A stretch of DNA of 26,725 bases from a virus, in IMG/VR virus record IMGVR_UViG_3300025102_000236, positions 1 through 26,725 of that record; one strand, written 5' to 3'. Positions 3,920 to 18,832 of the stretch are shown in pieces (position 1 is the stretch's first letter; the number at the start of each line of letters is the position of its first letter). The notes below the pieces were generated by a model. It made no database searches. It was not told where the DNA came from and saw only the letters and a program-made list of their open reading frames with translations. Position numbers and translations under genes: made by a program.

Positions 3920-6232
3920 ATGGCTAAAAAGAAAAAGAAAAAATATCAACAAAAGTATTATACTGGTGGTAGAGTAGATTATAGAAAAGGTGGCAGAGTT
4001 TCTAAAGCTCATGGTGGTCCTCATGGATTACAAAAAATGGATGAAGTACCTGAAAGAGAAGATATGTCTATACAAAGAGAAGACACACCTCAAGTTAATC
4101 GTTCTCCAGAAGTAACAGAAAAAACTGTAAGAACTGTTGACCCCAAAGACAGACCAAATCAACCAATGAGAAGAATACCGAACGAATCTAAACCTAGAGA
4201 AGGAATGGTATTTGCTGATAATATGCAGTCAGTATCTAAGGGTATAGATGATGTTATGGGAGGAAGAGAACCTAATGACCCTCCAAATGGTGAAGCTACA
4301 ATAGTAAGAAATGGTACTATTCACACATGGAATGGTTTTAGATATATAGACACAGGACAAAAAGCAAAACCTCCTAAAGAAACAGATACTCCTCCTGATG
4401 AATTTGAAGGAATGTCAGACAAACAAAAAAAAGAGTTGTTTGAAGATGAAAGAAGAAAAAGAATAATTCAGTCTGGTAGAACTGTAGATGATATAGCTGC
4501 TGGTATACTTCCAGACTTACCAGAAGCAGAAGTAGAAAAAGTTTCTCAAGAAGGAACTACAGCATCTACAGTTCAAATGGATGCTACTACACCTGCAGAA
4601 GCTTCAACTATAGCTCAAACTGCTCCTGAACAAGTAACTGAAGCAGCTACAGCTACTGCTCAAACTCCAGAACAAATAAGAGCTTCACAAATGGAAGCAG
4701 CTACAGTAGATACTCAAGCTCAAGTAGATGCAGCACAAGGACAAGTATCAGACCAATCTATAGCACAAGCAGCTAAAGTAGATAGAGTAGCACCTATAGA
4801 AGGAGCTGAAGTTGAAATACCTGAAGGTGCTTTGGTTGATAGAGTTGTTGGTAGTATTAGCGAAGGAGCTAAAGCTATTGCAGTACAAAACGCAGGAACA
4901 AGTTTATCTAGAATTACAAGAGCTAAAAAACAATTAAGTAAGGCTGGTTTATCTGATTCAGACATACAAGAAATAGGTAATGACCCTGAAGCTTTAGAAG
5001 ATAGACTTGCAGATTTTAGTGAACAAGAAAGAGGTATTATTGCAGGATTACCTGAAGAAGCATTAGTATCTACACAATTAAATGGTTTATTAGAAGGTAT
5101 GGAAAATGGTGAAATACCACTATGGGCTAAACCTGCTGTAACACAAGTAGAGCAAATGTTAGCTTCTAGAGGTTTAAGTGCTTCTAGTGTTGGTAGAGAT
5201 GGTTTATTTAATGCTATTATACAAAGTGCTTTACCTATAGCTCAAAGTAATGCACAAGCTATTCAACAAAGTGTAAGTCAGCAACGAAATATTGAAGCAC
5301 AAGAAGCAGAAGCAAATGCACAAAGAATGCAACAAACAGCTTTAACAAATGCTAGTAATGTATTTCAAATGGATATGGCTCAATTTAGTTCTGACCAACA
5401 AATAGCATTATCTAATAGTAAATTTTTACAAACTGTAGGTTTAACAGAAGCTAGTAATGAACAACAATCTACTATACAAAACGCTGCTTTAATGTCACAA
5501 GCAAATTTAACAGAAGCTGATTTTAATCAAAGAAGTCAAATACAAAATGCTCAAGCTTTTTTACAAATGGATATGGCTAATTTAACTAACCAACAACAAT
5601 CAAATGTTTTAAAAGCACAACAAGAACAACAGCGTATATTATCTAATCAATCAGCAACAAATGCTGCAAGACAATTTAATTCTGCAAGTGAAAATCAAAC
5701 TAATCAATTTATGGCTTCTTTAGAAGCAAACATGAATCAATTTAATACAGCTCAAATGAATGCTAATAGTCAGTTTAATGCTCAGTCTAGGAATGCTGCT
5801 GCTGCTAGAGATGCTAATAGAGTAGCAGATGTAAATAAAGCTAATGCTGCAATACTAAATCAAGTTAGTCAATTTAATGCTCAACTAGATTTTAATAGAG
5901 AACAATGGAACTCTGCTAACGAACAAGCTATAGTCAACTCAAATATAAATTGGAGAAGACAGTCAAACTTAGCAGATACTGCAGCACAGAATGCAGTTAA
6001 TCAACAAAACGCACAAAATGCTTTTGGTCTAACACAAGCTGCACAATCATTTTTATGGCAAGAGTTAAGAGACCAAGCAGACTATGATTTTAAATGGGCT
6101 ACAGATACAGCTAATAGAAAATTAAATGCTATGATAGCTGCAGCTAGTTCAGAAGGAGACGCTGCTAAAAATTGGACAACTAATTTTGATAGAGCCTCAA
6201 TAACAGTAGATAGAATATTCGGAGACACATAA
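3920..6232 (+). CDS. Putative virion protein with basic GGR N-terminus and Gln/Asn/Ala-rich helical region, 770 aa
   Basis: The first ~35 residues are strongly basic and glycine-rich (MAKKKKKKYQQKYYTGGR, then KGGR and HGG), followed by a proline/charged, probably disordered stretch to about residue 190. Residues ~215-290 are Ala/Thr/Gln-rich. From about 430 to 720 the protein is a long Gln/Asn/Ala helix with recurring FQMDMA / FLQMDMA and QFN elements, suggesting an extended alpha-helical bundle or coiled coil. No enzyme motif or membrane segment is seen. The ribosome-binding site is AGGAAA at 3910-3915. It heads a run of five large proteins between the fibre and the lysozyme, the position expected for internal core or ejection proteins in podoviruses. 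The N-terminus could bind DNA. Family not identified; the role is inferred from context and composition. Confidence 0.68.
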   Translation: MAKKKKKKYQQKYYTGGRVDYRKGGRVSKAHGGPHGLQKMDEVPEREDMSIQREDTPQVNRSPEVTEKTVRTVDPKDRPNQPMRRIPNESKPREGMVFADNMQSVSKGIDDVMGGREPNDPPNGEATIVRNGTIHTWNGFRYIDTGQKAKPPKETDTPPDEFEGMSDKQKKELFEDERRKRIIQSGRTVDDIAAGILPDLPEAEVEKVSQEGTTASTVQMDATTPAEASTIAQTAPEQVTEAATATAQTPEQIRASQMEAATVDTQAQVDAAQGQVSDQSIAQAAKVDRVAPIEGAEVEIPEGALVDRVVGSISEGAKAIAVQNAGTSLSRITRAKKQLSKAGLSDSDIQEIGNDPEALEDRLADFSEQERGIIAGLPEEALVSTQLNGLLEGMENGEIPLWAKPAVTQVEQMLASRGLSASSVGRDGLFNAIIQSALPIAQSNAQAIQQSVSQQRNIEAQEAEANAQRMQQTALTNASNVFQMDMAQFSSDQQIALSNSKFLQTVGLTEASNEQQSTIQNAALMSQANLTEADFNQRSQIQNAQAFLQMDMANLTNQQQSNVLKAQQEQQRILSNQSATNAARQFNSASENQTNQFMASLEANMNQFNTAQMNANSQFNAQSRNAAAARDANRVADVNKANAAILNQVSQFNAQLDFNREQWNSANEQAIVNSNINWRRQSNLADTAAQNAVNQQNAQNAFGLTQAAQSFLWQELRDQADYDFKWATDTANRKLNAMIAAASSEGDAAKNWTTNFDRASITVDRIFGDT

Positions 6233-9535: not shown

Positions 9536-12500
9536 ATGTCAGACTTTAAAGATACTTTTAATAAATATCTAGAAACTGTTGGTTTATTTAACCCTGCTGT
9601 AAAATTAGTACAGCCATATGCTAATTCATTAATACCAGATGAAGTAAGTCCTTTTACTTTTATTGATGAACAAACAGAATATCGTAGACAAAATATAGAC
9701 CCTTTATATAAAGTAAGTGAAAGAGAAGCTATGTTATATGCAGCAGAAATGGGAGCATCTGATAGTATTCGAGGTATAGCTCAAGGTATAGGAAAAACAT
9801 TTGGAGCTGATGAATATTTAGAAGCACTTGCAGAAAAAGATAACACTCTTAATTCTATTTTAAATCATCCTGAATGGGGTACAAAAGGAATGACAGCATT
9901 TTTAGGTTCTGCTATTGCATTAGACCCTGTTACTTATGCACCTATAGTAGGGTGGTTAAGTAAAGGTAAGAAAGCTAAAAATTTAATGGAACTTACTAAG
10001 TATGGAACTATGGCTGGAGCTGCTGTATCTTCTCTTGGTTATACTCCAGAAGATAGAGGTATAATCTTTACAGATGAAGACTCATCTTTCGTAGCTAAAA
10101 AATTTGAACAAACTGGAATAGGTGCTACTGCAGGTGCTGTTCTTTCTGCTGGTGGTGGTGCTATAGTAGATGTAGTGCAAAAAGCTAGAGGTAAAGGAAG
10201 TATCTTTGCAGGACCAGATGAAATTGATTCTAAAGCTTTTGCAGATGATATAATTGATGAAGGAGATTTAGATGCTCCAATAGATATTGGAAGTAGAATT
10301 AGAGCTAAAGATAGAAAAAATATAGGAGTAGTTACAGACTTAGATGAAGAAAAAGGAATAGCTACTGTACAGTTTGTAAATAAAAAAACAGGTAAGACAG
10401 CTACAAAAAGATTTATATTAAATGATATTCAACCTGAAAAACCCGGACAACCTAAAAGAAAAACTTTAGGAAAAGAACTATCTTATTCTCCTACAGAAGT
10501 AACTTTTATATTAGATAAATCTGTAAAAGGAAGCACTAAATATATAACAGGACATAATGATGATGTTTATATTATTAGTAAAGCACTTGACCCAGATACT
10601 AAGAAACCTTTAAAGGGTGCTTGGACTATAAACAAAAATACAAGAAAAAGAAATCCTCTTAGCGATGACCCAGATACTTTAAGTTTTCCTGATGTTGAAA
10701 AAACAATTAACTTAGGAACTTTTAATAAATTAAAAGATGCAAAAGATTTTGTAAAAAGTAAAATTTATAAAAGACCTACTCCTAAAAATAAAAAAGAAAC
10801 TGTTGAAAACATAGCTGATGATTTAACTAATTCAGCAAATACTCCATATAGAACTTCTAATCCAGTTTTAAAATTTTATCAAGATAAATTAGGAATACCT
10901 TTAAAGAATTTAATATTTAATAATCCAGCAGAAGCAATAGGTGGTGTTGTAGGTTATAACTACGGAGCAACTTATGATGACCCTAATGCTACTTTTGCAC
11001 AAAAACTTACTAATCGTTTAATAGGTACAATAGCTGGTACAGGTGGTGTTAAAGGAACTAGATATGGTATAAACAAAGCTTATCAAGTAGGAAATGGTTT
11101 AGAAACATATGAAGATGTAATAGGTAAAACTATGGGAAGACTTATTATATCTGACTATGGTTTAAAACCAGAATACTTAGCAACTAAACAAAACTTTAGA
11201 ACAAGTAAAAATGAAATAGGATTAATCTTTTATGACATTGTAGAAAAAGCTAGTAAAGAATTAAATGAAGAACAAAGAAAGTTATTATACTTTTTAATGA
11301 ACGGAGACCAAGTAGAGCTATCAAAATTAAGTCCAGAGGCACTAGCAATAAATGCAGAAGCAAGAAGTTTAATTATAAAGTATGGTCAAGAGTTAGTTGA
11401 TAGAGGTTTATTAGATGAAAAAATATTTAGAAAAAATATAAATACTTATATAAAAAGAACTTATAATAAACCTAGAAAAGAAAATGACAAAACATTTTTT
11501 GAAACTCATAGACAAATAAGAATTATAGGAGATGAATTAAAACCTAGAGGCATAGTTGAAACTACAACTAAAAAAACTTTTAATAGAAAAAATTCACAAT
11601 ATAAAAAATCAGATGGTTGGGAAATATTAGAAGATTTAGGAAAAGGTAAAATAAAAATAAGAAGACAATATACTACAGCAGAAAGAAAAGGATTAGAAGA
11701 AATAGAAGATGCTGCATTTGCTCTAAAAGAAACAGGAAGGTTATTTGCTAACGATATAGCTACTGCTAGATTTTTTGATGACTTATCTAAAATGGATGAT
11801 TTAGTAATGGATGAAGCAGCTTATAAGGCATTACCTAAAAGTCAACAAGATAATTTTAAATTGATGCCTAGCACTAAAATAGGTGAAACAAATAAATTAA
11901 AATATGGTGAGCTTTCAGGTAAATATGTAGATGTAGATGTGCTTAGAGATATAAGACATACTTTTGGTTTTGATACAACATCTAAAATTCTTGAGCCTTC
12001 TAATCCAATACTTAGATTTTTTGCAAAAGGTATAGATGGTTTACAAACTCTTTGGAAAAAAACAAAAACAGCTTGGTCTTTACCAACTCATGTAGGTAAC
12101 TTTAATTCTAATATAGTCTTAGCAGACTTTGCAGACATGAAAGGTGGTATTAGTGGTACTCTTAAAGAGTTACCAAGTGTAATGAAAATAATGAGAGATA
12201 AAAAAAATCCTATGTATAAACAAGCTGTTATAGATGGTATTTTTGATGTAGACATGGTTTCTAAAGATTTAAGAAACTTAGACCATATAGAACAATCTTT
12301 TAATATAGTAGCAAAAGCAGATAATATAGGAGAAGGTTTAGCTAATGCTGCTAAATATAGATTAAAAGCTTTTAAAGGTATGACAGTCGATGAAATGGAA
12401 AGACTTTATCAGTTAGAAGACCAATGGTTTAGAATGATGATTTATATGGACAGAATAAATAATAAAGGTATGTCTAGAACTGAAGCAGCTTTAGATGCTC

Positions 12501-13663
12501 GTAAATGGTTTATTGATTATGATATTAATGCTCCTTTAATTAAAGCTCTTAAAAGAACTGCAGTACCTTTTATAAGTTATACTTACAGAGTTATACCATT
12601 AATAGCAGAGGCTGCTGCTTTAAGACCTCACAAGTTTGCTAAGTGGGGAGCATTAGGTTATGCACTTGACAATTCTGGGCAATATTTAACAGATGACAAA
12701 ACAGGAACAGAGTTAGATAGACTTACAGTTAGAGAAGATTTAAGTAGAAATATGTTTGGAGCAGTTCCAGTTATAGGAGACTTAATGCCAAACACTAATT
12801 TAAGAATGCCTGTAAATGATAAAAATGGAAACGCTTTATATTGGGATGTTGCTAGGTGGTTGCCTGGAGGTGACATTTTTGAGCAAAGAGCTACTGGTTC
12901 AGGTTTTCCCGGAATACCCGGAAACTTTCAACCCGGTGGTATTTACTATGATTTATTTGTAAATTTAGCAACTAAAACAGACCCTTTTACTGGACAAAAT
13001 TTAGAAGACATGGGAGTTGATACAGAAAGTGGATTGGCAATAATTAGCCACTATTTAAAAAATCAAGTACCTAACCTTCCCGGTCTTGGTTACTTTGATA
13101 TTTTACCTAAGTCTTATGGTATGAAAAAATATGAGTTAGCTAAAAGAGTAGATGAAGGAGAGTTAGATGCAGAGCAAATTTATTCTAGAAAGTTTGTTAC
13201 TAAAGACACTCCTCATGTAGCTTTAGCTTATATGTTTGGTATTAGATTAAGACCTCAAGATGTAAATATAAATAAACAATCTAGACAAGCTGCATATGAA
13301 AGAGAGTTAGCTGATAATAGAGAACAAATTGATAAAATAGAAAAAAACTTTAGGACAGGTAAAATTAAAACTAGAAAAGAAGCAGATAAACAAAGAGCTT
13401 ATTGGGAAGAAAAATTAATACAACTTAATGCAGAAAAAGAAATATATGATATAGAAGTAAATAGATTAGAAAGTAAAATAGGTCGTGAAGAATTACAAAA
13501 ACAAAGAAAAAGAAATAAAAAATTTGAAGGTGGTCCAATATCAGAAAACTTTCCAGTATCTGATGTAAAAGAAACAGCAGCAGATAGAGTTGACCCTTTT
13601 ACAGGACAACCTTACTCTGACCAGATGGAGGAATTAGGATTAAATGTTTTTCAAGAAAGATAA
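9536..13663 (+). CDS. Giant virion protein, likely large internal / DNA-ejection protein, 1375 aa
   Basis: This is the longest complete gene in the window, in the place and size range of the large internal virion protein of podoviruses (T7 gp16 is about 1,300 residues). Gly/Ala-rich hydrophobic stretches lie near 155-170 and 193-213. Residues ~248-300 resemble a small beta-barrel inserted in the chain (IDIGSRIRAKD...GVVTDLDEEKGIATVQF). A helical core follows, with AWSLPTHVGNFNSN near 845, VPFISYTYRVIPLIAEAAAL near 1010 and a charged coiled coil at ~1255-1330. I could not find the ExxH- or SLT-type catalytic signature of lytic transglycosylases. The two core motifs recall phage large polyvalent proteins, but I cannot confirm a family. 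There is no clear Shine-Dalgarno. The last 20 bases overlap the lysozyme gene. Confidence 0.72.
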   Translation: MSDFKDTFNKYLETVGLFNPAVKLVQPYANSLIPDEVSPFTFIDEQTEYRRQNIDPLYKVSEREAMLYAAEMGASDSIRGIAQGIGKTFGADEYLEALAEKDNTLNSILNHPEWGTKGMTAFLGSAIALDPVTYAPIVGWLSKGKKAKNLMELTKYGTMAGAAVSSLGYTPEDRGIIFTDEDSSFVAKKFEQTGIGATAGAVLSAGGGAIVDVVQKARGKGSIFAGPDEIDSKAFADDIIDEGDLDAPIDIGSRIRAKDRKNIGVVTDLDEEKGIATVQFVNKKTGKTATKRFILNDIQPEKPGQPKRKTLGKELSYSPTEVTFILDKSVKGSTKYITGHNDDVYIISKALDPDTKKPLKGAWTINKNTRKRNPLSDDPDTLSFPDVEKTINLGTFNKLKDAKDFVKSKIYKRPTPKNKKETVENIADDLTNSANTPYRTSNPVLKFYQDKLGIPLKNLIFNNPAEAIGGVVGYNYGATYDDPNATFAQKLTNRLIGTIAGTGGVKGTRYGINKAYQVGNGLETYEDVIGKTMGRLIISDYGLKPEYLATKQNFRTSKNEIGLIFYDIVEKASKELNEEQRKLLYFLMNGDQVELSKLSPEALAINAEARSLIIKYGQELVDRGLLDEKIFRKNINTYIKRTYNKPRKENDKTFFETHRQIRIIGDELKPRGIVETTTKKTFNRKNSQYKKSDGWEILEDLGKGKIKIRRQYTTAERKGLEEIEDAAFALKETGRLFANDIATARFFDDLSKMDDLVMDEAAYKALPKSQQDNFKLMPSTKIGETNKLKYGELSGKYVDVDVLRDIRHTFGFDTTSKILEPSNPILRFFAKGIDGLQTLWKKTKTAWSLPTHVGNFNSNIVLADFADMKGGISGTLKELPSVMKIMRDKKNPMYKQAVIDGIFDVDMVSKDLRNLDHIEQSFNIVAKADNIGEGLANAAKYRLKAFKGMTVDEMERLYQLEDQWFRMMIYMDRINNKGMSRTEAALDARKWFIDYDINAPLIKALKRTAVPFISYTYRVIPLIAEAAALRPHKFAKWGALGYALDNSGQYLTDDKTGTELDRLTVREDLSRNMFGAVPVIGDLMPNTNLRMPVNDKNGNALYWDVARWLPGGDIFEQRATGSGFPGIPGNFQPGGIYYDLFVNLATKTDPFTGQNLEDMGVDTESGLAIISHYLKNQVPNLPGLGYFDILPKSYGMKKYELAKRVDEGELDAEQIYSRKFVTKDTPHVALAYMFGIRLRPQDVNINKQSRQAAYERELADNREQIDKIEKNFRTGKIKTRKEADKQRAYWEEKLIQLNAEKEIYDIEVNRLESKIGREELQKQRKRNKKFEGGPISENFPVSDVKETAADRVDPFTGQPYSDQMEELGLNVFQER

Positions 13664-14117
13664 TAAATTAGATATAGAACTTTGCAAAGCTGAAATAAAA
13701 AGACACGAAGGAGAAGTGTTAGAGATTTACGAAGATAGTTTAGGATATAAAACTTTAGGTATAGGGCATTTATGCCAACCTCAAGACCCTGAATATTCTT
13801 GGGAAGTAGGAACTAAAGTATCTCAGGAAGTTGTTGATATGTATTATGAACAAGACTTTGAAAAACATTATCAAGAAACAATACATGTCTTTGGTAGCGA
13901 GGAAGACTTTGAAAACTTACCAGAACCTATACAAAGAGTGTTAGTTAATATGTGTTTTAACCTAGGAGGTACAAGACTTTCAAAGTTTCGTAACATGTTA
14001 AAAGCTTGTAAAGAACATAACTGGGATGAGATGGCTAGACAAATGGAAGATAGCCGTTGGTTTAGGCAAGTAGGTAGAAGAAGTAAAGAATTACAAGATA
14101 TAGTATTAGGAGTATAA
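13644..14117 (+). CDS. T4-type lysozyme (endolysin, GH24)
   Basis: An N-acetylmuramidase that cleaves the MurNAc-GlcNAc bond of peptidoglycan at lysis. The catalytic Glu-Asp-Thr triad of T4 lysozyme is present with exact spacing: E22 in KRHEGEVLEIYED, D31 in EDSLG and T37 in YKTLGIGHL (T4: 11/20/26). The C-terminal part carries the family's NLGG...F..M and W..Q.. positions (SRWFRQVGRRSKEL). At 157 residues it is close to T4 lysozyme (164). There is no N-terminal signal or SAR segment, so release should depend on the holin encoded next. The start lies 20 bases inside the 1375-aa gene, preceded by GGAGG at 13627. The holin gene follows after one base. Confidence 0.95.
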   Translation: MFFKKDNKLDIELCKAEIKRHEGEVLEIYEDSLGYKTLGIGHLCQPQDPEYSWEVGTKVSQEVVDMYYEQDFEKHYQETIHVFGSEEDFENLPEPIQRVLVNMCFNLGGTRLSKFRNMLKACKEHNWDEMARQMEDSRWFRQVGRRSKELQDIVLGV

Positions 14118-14118
14118 A

Positions 14119-14592
14119 ATGAAAGGATTACTAAAAAATATAGTTGGAGCTGTTGCACCTACATTAGGAACTGCATTAGGTGGACCGATGGGAGGAATGG
14201 CAGCTAACATGATATCAGAAGTGTTAGGTGTTCCTAATACTCCAAAAGCTATAGAGAAAGGAATAGCAGAAGCTACACCTGAACAAATGTTAGAACTTAA
14301 AAAAGCTGAACAAGCTTTTGAAGTTCAGATGAAAGAGCTTGATGTTGATGTATTTAAATTAGAAGTATCTGATGGTCAAGATGCTAGAAGTAAATTTAGT
14401 AAAGACTGGACAGCTCGTATCATGGGTATAGCTGTAGTAGGTGGATTTATGGGTTATATTTTTCTTGTTACTTTACAACCACCAGAACAAAACTCTGAAG
14501 CTCTTATAAATTTAGTATTAGGTTATCTTGGTGGTTTAGCTAGTGCTGTTATTAGTTTTTACTTTGGAGCTTCCAACACAAAAGATAAATAA
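14119..14592 (+). CDS. Holin, GTA_holin_3TM-like
   Basis: A small inner-membrane protein that permeabilises the membrane to release the endolysin. The N-terminus is hydrophobic and Gly-rich (residues 4-32), followed by a charged helix (52-82), the polar motif DGQDARSKFSKDWTARIMG (85-103), then two clear membrane segments at about 100-119 (IMGIAVVGGFMGYIFLVTL) and 128-150 (ALINLVLGYLGGLASAVISF). The hydrophobic N-terminus / Glu-Lys helix / D..AR...W / two-helix order matches the 3-TM holin family first described for gene transfer agents. It lies directly after the lysozyme, with AGGAG upstream, forming the lysis pair. The exact family assignment needs a profile search; a holin role is well supported by context. 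Confidence 0.82.
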   Translation: MKGLLKNIVGAVAPTLGTALGGPMGGMAANMISEVLGVPNTPKAIEKGIAEATPEQMLELKKAEQAFEVQMKELDVDVFKLEVSDGQDARSKFSKDWTARIMGIAVVGGFMGYIFLVTLQPPEQNSEALINLVLGYLGGLASAVISFYFGASNTKDK

Positions 14593-14604: not shown

Positions 14605-15684
14605 ATGTTATCAAAAGGGGAGATAAATAGAAAATTTTTTGGACCATTACTTATATTAAGTTTAATGGCAATGTCGTTTGCTGCAAGTGCAGATGACTGT
14701 GATGCTGGTACACAGTATTGTGAAGATAATAATTTAACTACCACTAATAATACGACTACTACAAATACTAACACCAATAATAATACTAATAATAATACAA
14801 ATACTAATACAAATACTAATACGAATACTAATAATAATACAAATACAAATACTAATACTAACACTAATAATAATACATCAACTAACACAAATAACAATAC
14901 TAATAATTCTACATCTACCAGTACTAATACCAATACTAACAACAATAATAATACTTCTACCTCTACCTCTACATCTACTGTAAACTCTACAGTAAATCAA
15001 AATGTAAACAATAATAGTAATTCTACTAGTAATAATACAAATACTAATAACAATACTAATGTTAATCAATCTACTTCAGATTCTAATGTTACTACTGATA
15101 ATACTAATACCAATAATAATAATACAAAGTCTGATAATACTAATAGAAATATTAACGAGTCTAATTCAACACAAACAATAAGACAAGAAATAAAAAGTAA
15201 AGCACCTCCTGCTTCTGCTATAGCACCTAGTATTATGTCTTATTCACAAGACCTTTGTACTGTAGGTCGTTCTGGTGCTTATCAAGGACAAGTATTTGGT
15301 ATCTCTACAGGTCGGACAGTTACTGATACTAATTGTGAACGCTTAAAACTTTCTAAGTATCTTTACGATACTGGTATGAAAGTAGCTTCAGTTTCAATAT
15401 TATGTCAAGACCCTAGAGTATTTAAGGCTATGGAAATGGCAGGTACTCCTTGTCCTTATCAAGGTCAGATAGGTAAAGAAGCTGCTAAAGCTTGGTCAGA
15501 AAATAAATCTAAAAGACCTGATGCTAAAGAACAATTAAAACTTTTTATAGAAGAATGTACTTACGATAAAAATCCTAACAGAAATAATATAAATAAAGAT
15601 GTAGTTGGGTTAGTAAAGAAAACCTATACAGCTAAAACTAAAACTAAAAGACAATGCAAAAAAGAATTTTATGCTACGCAGTAG
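14605..15684 (+). CDS. Exported protein with Asn/Thr-rich linker and Cys-containing C-terminal domain, 359 aa
   Basis: Residues 1-29 look like a signal peptide: a Lys/Arg region, the core PLLILSLMAMSFAA and an A-S-A cleavage site before Asp30. Residues ~43-190 are almost pure Asn/Thr with some Ser, typical of a flexible, possibly glycosylatable extracellular linker. The C-terminal domain (~190-359) is ordinary sequence with several cysteines (e.g. C218) and motifs such as GAYQGQVFGIS, NCERLKLSKYLYDTGMKVAS and AGTPCPYQGQIG. The Shine-Dalgarno is strong (AAGGAG). It follows the holin and its last 31 bases overlap the next exported protein, so the two are probably co-produced. Function unknown. 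Options are a periplasmic or outer-membrane lysis factor, a surface exclusion protein or a virion decoration. Confidence 0.72.
   Translation: MLSKGEINRKFFGPLLILSLMAMSFAASADDCDAGTQYCEDNNLTTTNNTTTTNTNTNNNTNNNTNTNTNTNTNTNNNTNTNTNTNTNNNTSTNTNNNTNNSTSTSTNTNTNNNNNTSTSTSTSTVNSTVNQNVNNNSNSTSNNTNTNNNTNVNQSTSDSNVTTDNTNTNNNNTKSDNTNRNINESNSTQTIRQEIKSKAPPASAIAPSIMSYSQDLCTVGRSGAYQGQVFGISTGRTVTDTNCERLKLSKYLYDTGMKVASVSILCQDPRVFKAMEMAGTPCPYQGQIGKEAAKAWSENKSKRPDAKEQLKLFIEECTYDKNPNRNNINKDVVGLVKKTYTAKTKTKRQCKKEFYATQ
14731..15174 (+). repeat. Low-complexity AAT/ACT-type codon repeat (poly Asn-Thr)
   Basis: About 440 bases made nearly entirely of AAY and ACN codons, with short direct repeats (AATACTAATAC and variants). 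Synonymous codons are mixed (AAT/AAC, ACT/ACA/ACC/ACG), so this is not a pure microsatellite. It should be prone to length change by slippage. Confidence 0.85.
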
Positions 15685-17657
15685 CGTGTCTCTTAAGTCT
15701 TAATGTCTTTAGTCAATATATCTACGAAGGCAATCAGTCTTTAATAGACCTTACCAATCAATCAGGTACAACCAATCTAAACTCTGGAGACGACCAAGTT
15801 TCTAATGCTTTTAATCTAGGGTTTAACTTTGATTTTTATAATCAAACTTTTAGCTCTGCTAGAATGGCTACCAATGGTTGTCTACATTTTAAAACCTCTG
15901 GAGCTTACTGTAACGACTACACACCAGACCCTTTAGCAAATAAAGCATATACTTATACTATGCTACCTTTTTGGACTGACTTAATACGAGATAATGGTTC
16001 AAAGATGTTAGCTAAAAATTTTAATGATATGACAGTCTTTGGTTGGTATAATATGCGTGAGTATAATCGTGCATCTGATAACAGTTTTGAAGTTATACTT
16101 TGGACTAACAATACTTTTGAGTATAGGTATGGTGCATTAGATATAATTAATCACGATGTTTTAATTGGTGAAGTAGGTAGTGGTAGCTCTGAAATATATC
16201 AATATTTATTTCACGATGAATGTAATACAGGCTCTACTAACTCTAGTAGTTGTGTAAATACTAACTGGAACGACACATCATTTAATGATATGTTAGAGAA
16301 TGGTGGTTCGTTATATGGTTCTGGTAGTGGTAATAATATTGATTGTAGTAATCCCCTAAACAATTCAAGCTGTTCTGGTTATGCAGCAGCTTATCAAACA
16401 CAACAATGTGATATAGACCAGTTATACTCTGAGTCATGTCCTTACTATTGGGATGCTTATGATGACCTTCAATGTGATTTAGACCCACAGTATGCTCCAT
16501 TCTGTCAAGGTTATAGCCAAGAAAATTCAGTAGCTTATTTTGAAGAAGAATTTGATTATGGTTATCAAGAAGAGTATGACATGTATGACACTTTTGAAGA
16601 ACCTGAAATGTTTGAAGAGTTTGTATTTGACTTTGAGTATGATTTTTTTGAAGAGCCTGAGTTAATATTTACAGAAGAAATAATCTTTGAACAACTACAA
16701 CCACTTGATGAATTTATAGAACCTCTTCCATTTATACGAGAAGAAGAAATATTTTTACCTATTGAAGATTTAATGATTGAGGAGTTTGTATTTCAAGAAA
16801 CATTTATTGAAGAAATGGAGGAGTGGTTTGAGGAAGAAGCAATTATTGAAGAAGAACTTGCGTATGCAGAGGAGTCGGAGGAAGAACTTATTGAGGAACT
16901 TATTGAGGAAGAAGAAGAAGTTATAGAAGAAGAAATACAAGAAGATGAAGAATTAGTTATTGCTGAAGAAACATCTGAAGGTAAGAGTTCAATAAGTAGA
17001 GAAATGGCATTAAACATTATCTCTTCTACTTTAAATACAGCTCAGTCTAGTGTTAGTGGTACTACATCAGGAAACTCTATACACTCTACAGGTGGCACGA
17101 CAGGAGCTTCTAGCGTATCATCATCTAATTCTGGTGGTGTAAGCATTAGTAATTCGCCTAGTATATCAGAACAATTTGCATCTTCTACTGCACAAAATAA
17201 TCAAGTGTTAGCTATGAGTTCTAATATTACAAGCTCTACAAGTACAGAAGTTGAGACAGTTGAGACAACGAGTGTCGCAGTTGATACAACATCTACTCAA
17301 ACTTTACAAAGTCAAATAGATGTATCAGTTTCTACAGATGCATCAGCTACAGAGACAGAACAAACTGTAGCCAATGTTATAGCTCAGAACTTACAAGATG
17401 CTCAAGATGATGTTGAAGCTAAACAAGAAGAGACAGGTGAGTATGGGTCAGAGAATACTATTATAGCTTATATGGGATTTGTACCTAACTTTAATAAATA
17501 TAGATTAGTTACATTACCGGACCAAGATATATGGTATGAGTCTACAGATATCTACGCAAACAATATGCTGTCAGATAACATTGAAGGCTTTTACCAAATG
17601 GCAGGTCAGAGTTTAGAAACTTTGATTAAAATAAAAGAACTAGAACCAAAATTATAG
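15654..17657 (+). CDS. Exported NIDO-like protein with Cys repeats and Glu-rich domain, 667 aa
   Basis: Residues 1-20 form a signal peptide (MQKRILCYAVACLLSLNVFS). Residues ~48-185 resemble a nidogen-type (NIDO) extracellular beta-domain, with N-A-F-N-L-G-F-N-F-D-F-Y, MATNGCLHF, LPFWTDL, VFGWYNM and FEVILWTNNTFEYRYG in the family's order. Residues 231-287 hold three ~22-residue repeats with Cys pairs (231/240, 252/262, 274/284), each pair followed by x-G/Y-Y. Residues ~297-441 are extremely Glu-rich with Phe/Tyr/Ile. A Ser/Thr-rich linker (~445-600) leads to a short conserved-looking C-terminal domain (IAYMGFVPNFNKYRL...). The start lies inside the preceding gene with no good Shine-Dalgarno, suggesting coupling. 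Likely surface or periplasmic; function unknown. A late-gene adhesion or superinfection role is possible but not shown. Confidence 0.72.
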   Translation: MQKRILCYAVACLLSLNVFSQYIYEGNQSLIDLTNQSGTTNLNSGDDQVSNAFNLGFNFDFYNQTFSSARMATNGCLHFKTSGAYCNDYTPDPLANKAYTYTMLPFWTDLIRDNGSKMLAKNFNDMTVFGWYNMREYNRASDNSFEVILWTNNTFEYRYGALDIINHDVLIGEVGSGSSEIYQYLFHDECNTGSTNSSSCVNTNWNDTSFNDMLENGGSLYGSGSGNNIDCSNPLNNSSCSGYAAAYQTQQCDIDQLYSESCPYYWDAYDDLQCDLDPQYAPFCQGYSQENSVAYFEEEFDYGYQEEYDMYDTFEEPEMFEEFVFDFEYDFFEEPELIFTEEIIFEQLQPLDEFIEPLPFIREEEIFLPIEDLMIEEFVFQETFIEEMEEWFEEEAIIEEELAYAEESEEELIEELIEEEEEVIEEEIQEDEELVIAEETSEGKSSISREMALNIISSTLNTAQSSVSGTTSGNSIHSTGGTTGASSVSSSNSGGVSISNSPSISEQFASSTAQNNQVLAMSSNITSSTSTEVETVETTSVAVDTTSTQTLQSQIDVSVSTDASATETEQTVANVIAQNLQDAQDDVEAKQEETGEYGSENTIIAYMGFVPNFNKYRLVTLPDQDIWYESTDIYANNMLSDNIEGFYQMAGQSLETLIKIKELEPKL

Positions 17658-17666
17658 GAGAACATT

Positions 17667-18008
17667 ATGGATTGGTTACAAAATAAAACAACACAGTTTA
17701 TTGCATTGATAGGTATTATTGGAACTCTGGCAGGGTTTGGATATCAAGGAGCAGAGTATGTTAATAGATTAGAAAATCTTGAAGCTGCTGTTGGTGGTAT
17801 CGCAGATACCGAAGATGCTCAAAAAATAATTGAAGAAAGGTTTGCTAAGATAGAAACATCAGTTCAATTTTTAGAAAAAGAAATAGACAATATATCTATT
17901 CCTGATGTAACTGAAATTAAAACCGACATTGCTACAATTAAAGCAGACCTTGAAACTTTAACTAAAGATATATCTAGACTAGAAAGTGGTAATCCTTTAG
18001 CTGGTTAA
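17667..18008 (+). CDS. Membrane-anchored coiled-coil protein, 113 aa
   Basis: One hydrophobic segment lies at about residues 9-30 (TQFIALIGIIGTLAGFGYQG). The rest is a charged helix with heptad spacing (VNRLENLEAAVGG, IETSVQFLEKEIDNI, IKTDIATIKADLETLTKDIS), predicting a parallel coiled coil. The Shine-Dalgarno AGGAGA lies 9 bases upstream. It follows the NIDO-like gene and abuts the 60-aa gene (TAA then ATG). N-terminal anchor plus periplasmic or cytoplasmic coiled coil is the shape of i-spanins and several phage lysis accessory proteins. No lipobox partner (o-spanin) is recognised nearby, so a spanin role is only a possibility. Confidence 0.72.
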   Translation: MDWLQNKTTQFIALIGIIGTLAGFGYQGAEYVNRLENLEAAVGGIADTEDAQKIIEERFAKIETSVQFLEKEIDNISIPDVTEIKTDIATIKADLETLTKDISRLESGNPLAG

Positions 18009-18318: not shown

Positions 18319-18536
18319 TCGGACATTATTCGTGCATTTAAATTATTTTCTAAATAATTATGTATGTTATCTAACTTTTGAGTGCATTCTCTTATGAGAG
18401 TATTTAATATTGAATAATCTTCTTCACTAAAATAAGGTTTTAGTTTTTTTATATCTGTTGATATTCTTTCTGTAACTAATTTACCTGACCTGTCATATAA
18501 TAAAGTATATTGTAATAATTTTGCTTCTTGTTTCAT
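18315..18536 (-). CDS. Hypothetical protein, 73 aa
   Basis: A small charged, helical protein: an N-terminal part with a beta-like segment (KLLQYTLLYDRSGKLVTERI), then helices rich in Leu, Ile, Asn and Glu (EEDYSILNTLIRECTQKLDN). No membrane segment or motif is seen. It is the last gene of the - strand module. Its start overlaps the stop of the 99-aa gene by four bases (ATGA), so it is translated as part of the operon. No family recognised. The + strand reading of the neighbouring stretch also gives an open frame, but that is a shadow. Confidence 0.62.
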   Translation of the reverse strand: MKQEAKLLQYTLLYDRSGKLVTERISTDIKKLKPYFSEEDYSILNTLIRECTQKLDNIHNYLENNLNARIMSD

Positions 18537-18832
18537 ATTAAAAATTCCAGTAATAAATTTTTGATTAAAAGAAAAAGACCAACAGCATTTAGAATAATTA
18601 ATGCTCTATCTTTCCAAATCAACCCAACCCATAACCAACCAGCTACTCCAAGTATAGATAGAATTAAATCTATAAATTGTAATCCTTCTATACCTCTTAT
18701 AGACATAGCACATACAATAATAGAACTTGAAATCCATTTTACATACCATGATATATCTCCTTTAGGAGTTGCTGATTTAAAAATTCTTTTTGAATTAATA
18801 ATTTCTTTTGGGTCAAACTTTGGTTTATTCAT
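18533..18832 (-). CDS. Small multi-spanning membrane protein (DUF6552-like), 99 aa
   Basis: Residues ~1-28 are soluble and basic, followed by the motif SWYVKWISSSIIVCAMSIRG (27-46) and three hydrophobic stretches at about 32-44, 52-70 (FIDLILSILGVAGWLWVGLI) and 75-95 (ALIILNAVGLFLLIKNLLLE). The YVKW..S.I...MSIR ... DLILSI.GV.GW ... ALI.LN.VGL order recalls a small uncharacterised membrane family of marine phages that I associate with DUF6552. That name is from memory and should be checked. The start overlaps the 3' end of nrdB by 8 bases. A role linked to RNR is unlikely; it is probably simply the next gene in the polycistron. Confidence 0.68.
   Translation of the reverse strand: MNKPKFDPKEIINSKRIFKSATPKGDISWYVKWISSSIIVCAMSIRGIEGLQFIDLILSILGVAGWLWVGLIWKDRALIILNAVGLFLLIKNLLLEFLI

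Follow-up and report, generated by a model that had tools for sequence, protein, structure and literature searches.

Gene B, at positions 15654-17657 of the 26.7-kb virus record analysed here (the window, i.e. the whole stretch of DNA), is the middle gene of a three-gene cassette, A-B-C, and does not encode a stand-alone protein. The anatomy of this late cassette is well supported; for its function, we infer with a probability of about 0.4 that B is the exported target-binding subunit and that its most likely role is to mask receptors. The gene order, the nearness to lysis genes, the homology of A and C, the adhesin-type head of B and the mosaicism of this head support the proposal through analyses, and the signal peptides of A and B, as well as the transmembrane segment and coiled coil of C, were recognised by inspection only. 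The original prediction described B as an exported protein of the late module, encoded after the holin. Its export, its head shared with bacterial surface proteins and its position in the lysis module stood; however, the gene for another exported protein, A, lies between the holin-like gene and B, and the cassette had been missed (Table 1). Adhesion, surface masking or release from the cell, which were also suggested there, are putative roles of B.

Table 1. Coordinates of the lysis genes, the A-B-C cassette and the regions of proteins A and B in the window.
Feature	Position	Strand	Description or basis
Phage lysozyme (endolysin)	13644..14117	+	Pfam PF00959, 1.4e-9; PHROG endolysin, 9.5e-18
Holin-like membrane protein	14119..14592	+	phrog_1544 (function unknown), 2e-24
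Gene A	14605..15684	+	signal peptide (by eye), Asn/Thr-rich linker, Cys domain
A, conserved domain with four invariant Cys	15196..15522	+	alignment
Gene B	15654..17657	+	667 aa, ATG start; family of 135 stretches
B, signal peptide	15654..15713	+	by eye; in relatives, leader replaced and cleavage context kept
B, NIDO-like beta-sandwich head	15714..16223	+	residues 21-190; profile matches and AF2 model
B, three Cys-pair repeats	16344..16505	+	residues 231-284
B, Glu-rich belt	16545..16973	+	residues 298-440; net charge -62
B, Ser/Thr-rich linker	16974..17453	+	residues 441-600; 37 Ser, 23 Thr
B, C-terminal region	17454..17654	+	slow evolution; dN/dS 0.05-0.14 (residues 591-667)
Gene C	17667..18008	+	N-terminal transmembrane segment and coiled coil (both by eye), C-terminal NPLAG tail

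In IMG/VR, 135 stretches encode relatives of B and 145 encode relatives of a divergent head; the two sets overlap and duplicates were removed. Loci were picked by similarity to B or A, and their counts, which describe the B family and not all phages, show gene A directly upstream of B in 117 of the 117 distinct loci with enough upstream DNA, gene C no more than 500 bases downstream of B in 86 of 99 distinct loci, and a lysis gene at most about 4.5 kb from the cassette in 34 of the 38 loci with long flanks. Three layouts were distinguished among these 38 loci: endolysin and/or holin followed by A-B-C (21 loci), A-B-C with Rz-Rz1 behind it and, in most cases, an endolysin (seven loci), and endolysin and/or holin downstream of A-B-C (six loci). 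No lysis gene was found near the cassette in the other four. The cassette of a near-relative, L076 (4555-7950), lies amid small unknown genes and no lysis gene was found nearby. In L054, a gene encoding a NifU-N/IscU-like Fe-S scaffold protein (10168-10551; PF01592, 1.7e-38) is located between B and C, and similar genes are found downstream of B in L025, L028 and L017.

L054 also shows a GTA_holin_3TM gene at the place of the holin-like gene of the window which, by this indirect positional evidence, is a candidate holin. Gene C is followed by a gene encoding a 60-amino acid membrane protein and then by genes on the opposite strand, including one for a ribonucleotide reductase. A small membrane protein encoded at 18533-18832, on the minus strand, matches DUF6552 (8.5e-18). 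Rfam and tRNA scans of the window gave nothing, and the matches of a promoter scan were no more frequent than chance. The window PolA is nearest to those of the cultured SAR11 phages HTVC115P, HTVC103P and HTVC104P (about 52% identity), and the large protein encoded at 3920-6232 is common to HMO-2011-type phages. PolA and the relatives of the cassette point to SAR11-like hosts; nevertheless, gene A is also found in phage-like contigs of metagenome-assembled genomes (MAGs) labelled Bacteroidota, Gammaproteobacteria and others, and therefore the host assignment is tentative. The B head resembles Bacteroidota proteins.

The start codon of B falls within the last 31 nucleotides of A, so that part of the B signal peptide is encoded in two frames. 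The N-terminus of B consists of MQKR, about 15 hydrophobic residues and VFS/Q (the slash marks the presumed cleavage site), which by eye is a signal peptide. Its relatives show quite different hydrophobic leaders, each with a small residue in last place directly before [QETSD]YIYE: the leader of L033 is MGEYFKVLLGLSLL..TCA/E, and those of L047 and L075 are likewise swapped. The B leader thus appears to be conserved in function rather than in sequence. The remaining architecture was also as originally proposed. The three Cys pairs are C231-x8-C240, C252-x9-C262 and C274-x9-C284, with zero to five copies of the motif among B relatives; the belt is dominated by Glu, Phe and Ile (55, 17 and 16 residues, respectively) and precedes the Ser/Thr linker. 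Neither the Cys repeat nor the C-terminal region found a match in the phage collection. All regions of B are under purifying selection, with dN/dS values of 0.06-0.23 in the head and 0.23-0.37 in the belt, in addition to the low values of the C-terminus. The AF2 model of full-length B has a mean pLDDT of 43, with only the beta region usable, and a Foldseek search with it gave nothing.

The NIDO-type beta-sandwich of the original prediction was upheld at the level of the family. Pfam PF06119 (NIDO) matches 21 of 50 B family members (best E-value 4.2e-5), and a search with the family profile retrieved residues 45-172 of Flavobacterium johnsoniae RemA (PDB 8gl6; E-value 4.7e-9), results that place the family in homology with NIDO/RemA-type domains. 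The window head itself has no PF06119 match at E-values up to 10 and is therefore termed NIDO-like and not a NIDO member. An AF2 model of B residues 21-230, built from 50 homologues, is nearly all beta (pLDDT 86.7, pTM 0.89). Neither Foldseek nor VIA gave a convincing match to the head alone among PDB structures, a comparison set that may lack a solved NIDO domain, and in BFVD an uncharacterised phage protein was found to be folded similarly (E-value 2e-10, TM 0.71). The head profile matches proteins in 15 of 149 genomes of the Flavobacteriaceae, the family of Salinimicrobium, with E-values below 1e-5, and in none of 142 genomes from the class of the MAG labelled Maricaulis. The matching Flavobacteriaceae proteins are large; of the three that were scanned, the first carries HYR domains, Ig-like domains and a type IX secretion signal, the second an HYR domain and the third a laminin-G/lectin-like domain. 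Profile matches, the AlphaFold model and homology to Flavobacteriaceae surface proteins support the prediction of a NIDO-like head. As in the N-terminal domain of RemA and in NIDO domains, the head is profile-matched, mostly beta and carried by an exported protein; in contrast, B is phage-encoded, has a single head on an acidic stalk and shows no type IX secretion domain. Furthermore, L011 and window B differ by a dS of 0.97 in the head and 0.19 in the belt, in an informal comparison of this single pair, a mosaic that is consistent with head exchange within the NIDO family.

Gene A of the window contains a long, low-complexity Asn/Thr-rich stretch whose length varies among its relatives. Its Cys domain gave nothing against PDB sequences. 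Among 50,697 phage records, 11 encode this domain; they belong to six SAR11 phages (one of them the T4-like Mosig), two roseophages and three phages that are uncultured. Seven records were inspected closely: homologues of A in the SAR11 phages HTVC115P, HTVC033P, HTVC023P, HTVC202P, Baldr and Mosig, and in an uncultured autographivirus, are followed by a gene for an exported Glu-rich protein, B', and then by a C-like gene with an NPL tail, which in HTVC115P lies about 0.7 kb further on. The window C has no match in phages by tblastn, and its homology appears only by profile comparison: hhalign of the window-family C against the C of other phages gave 2.2e-15, and the window C scored 47 bits against a maximum of 25 in 2000 shuffles. 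On this comparison, the C proteins of the window family and of these other phages are judged homologous. The "lysozyme" genes downstream of A in CRP-810 (L089, 6162-6584) and CRP-207 (L090, 3292-3873) show NPL-type tails like that of C; the CRP-207 product has no lysozyme Pfam match and looks coiled-coil, a possible misannotation. A gene annotated as toxin-activating lysine-acyltransferase (HTVC115P gp46; L082, 12243-12692) is found a few kb from the cassette.

The heads differ between these sets, being NIDO-like in the window family and of an 'NGNFE..GW' type or other beta-rich-looking types in B'. No significant sequence similarity was found between B and B' (the C-terminal parts gave an hhalign P of 0.004, and HMM scores fell below those of shuffled controls). 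Homology of their C-terminal parts was thus unsupported, despite a by-eye resemblance in aromatic spacing. The link between B and B' rests on position, export, composition and partners.

According to the proposed mechanism, Sec would export A and B late in infection, A would fold with disulphides in the periplasm, and C would be an inner-membrane anchor whose coiled coil and NPL tail extend into the periplasm. The three proteins would form a complex in which the acidic belt of B acts as an extended spacer or stalk and its head attaches to some constituent of the host envelope. Masking of receptor-bearing envelope, in late infection and on lysis debris, would leave late-coming phages and released progeny uncaptured. 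Masking of receptors or debris is preferred because it best accounts for a binding head that is exchanged while its partners stay constant. Since B has no known outer-membrane exporter, it may remain periplasmic and would then be unable to mask surface receptors before lysis. Most superinfection-exclusion proteins are small, which counts against masking by a 667-amino acid protein. The missing sequence similarity between B and B' and the four loci with no lysis gene found nearby also count against the proposal. Exported phage proteins that mask receptors do exist, e.g. Llp of T5. Proteins of the Llp type are, like B, exported and proposed to work at the host envelope; in contrast, A-B-C has three genes, a 667-amino acid subunit and an exchangeable head, and its masking activity is a prediction.

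The closest rival is that A-B-C is a lysis accessory which opens or loosens the outer envelope besides Rz/Rz1 or, in some phages, instead of them; C would then be an anchor resembling an i-spanin, and B would form the bridge to the outer membrane. We consider this rival unlikely, despite a cassette located after endolysin and holin or directly 5' of Rz-Rz1, a C protein laid out by eye like an i-spanin, with a weak match to phrog_739 (0.0055), and one B-like protein (L202) that starts with a lipoprotein signal. No o-spanin was picked up by a strict lipobox scan of the window, of 24 NIDO loci or of the cultured-phage loci scanned, a result that also agrees with this rival; the scan is insensitive, since it also missed the L075 o-spanin. 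With two-component spanins the cassette shares the lysis-module position and, as far as C can be judged by eye, the N-terminal transmembrane segment and coiled coil; however, neither A nor B of the window has the lipobox of an o-spanin partner, and B is no lipoprotein. Furthermore, Rz/Rz1 pairs adjoin the cassette in seven of the 38 loci and in contig L206, and A-B-C can therefore not simply be equated with the spanin; where such pairs are present, the original suggestion of envelope disruption, taken to mean that the cassette is the spanin of the phage, is rejected. Lysis alone also leaves the changing heads unexplained, and most phages must lyse without A, which occurs in only 11 of the 50,697 phage records.

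Surface remodelling, in which an adhesin displayed by B would glue infected cells or debris to other cells, as has been suggested for phage curli, is less probable again. The head of B is homologous to bacterial surface proteins, and curli operons (T8SS), likewise exported multi-gene modules, are described from unrelated SAR11 phages (PMC9599517). The A-B-C genes differ from those described there, the CsgG pore was found in none of 22 cassette-bearing records (four control genomes were positive), and no other outer-membrane exporter was recognised beside the cassette. Since the searched records lack CsgG, identity with phage curli was rejected. An exchangeable adhesin-like head, a long stalk and the late position would also suit a protein that joins the particles once it has passed or met the periplasm, for instance as a decoration or as a fibre for host recognition. 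This is the least probable of the readings, as signal peptides are kept functionally despite replacement of their sequence and the cassette is found in phages of unrelated types, among them the T4-like Mosig; no virion proteomics of cassette-bearing phages was found in the literature searched.

Beyond receptor masking by B, a broader and tentative proposal is that A-B-C may be an undescribed envelope-spanning apparatus of marine phages, shared between unrelated phages. In it, a coiled-coil protein would be anchored in the inner membrane, a subunit with disulphide bonds would sit in the periplasm and an adhesin with an acidic stalk would carry interchangeable heads; the whole would be made together with the lysis proteins and decide what the envelope of the dying cell binds. 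A term search within the open-licence marine-phage papers examined gave no mention of the cassette. The transcriptome study PMC12753301 gives no direct help, since the two phages that it followed, HTVC022P and HTVC027P, are absent from the set of records that carry gene A. Phage proteins that are exported and act at the host envelope are already known; no description of this three-gene form, with its exchangeable heads, was found in the literature covered.

Viruses that infect SAR11 and related bacteria are among the most numerous in the sea, and little is known of their exit from the cell and their competition at its envelope. One common group of marine bacterial viruses carries, beside its lysis genes, a three-gene set for proteins predicted to be directed to the envelope, and this conserved exported cassette with exchangeable heads provides a concrete entry point for tests in the cultured phages that carry it.
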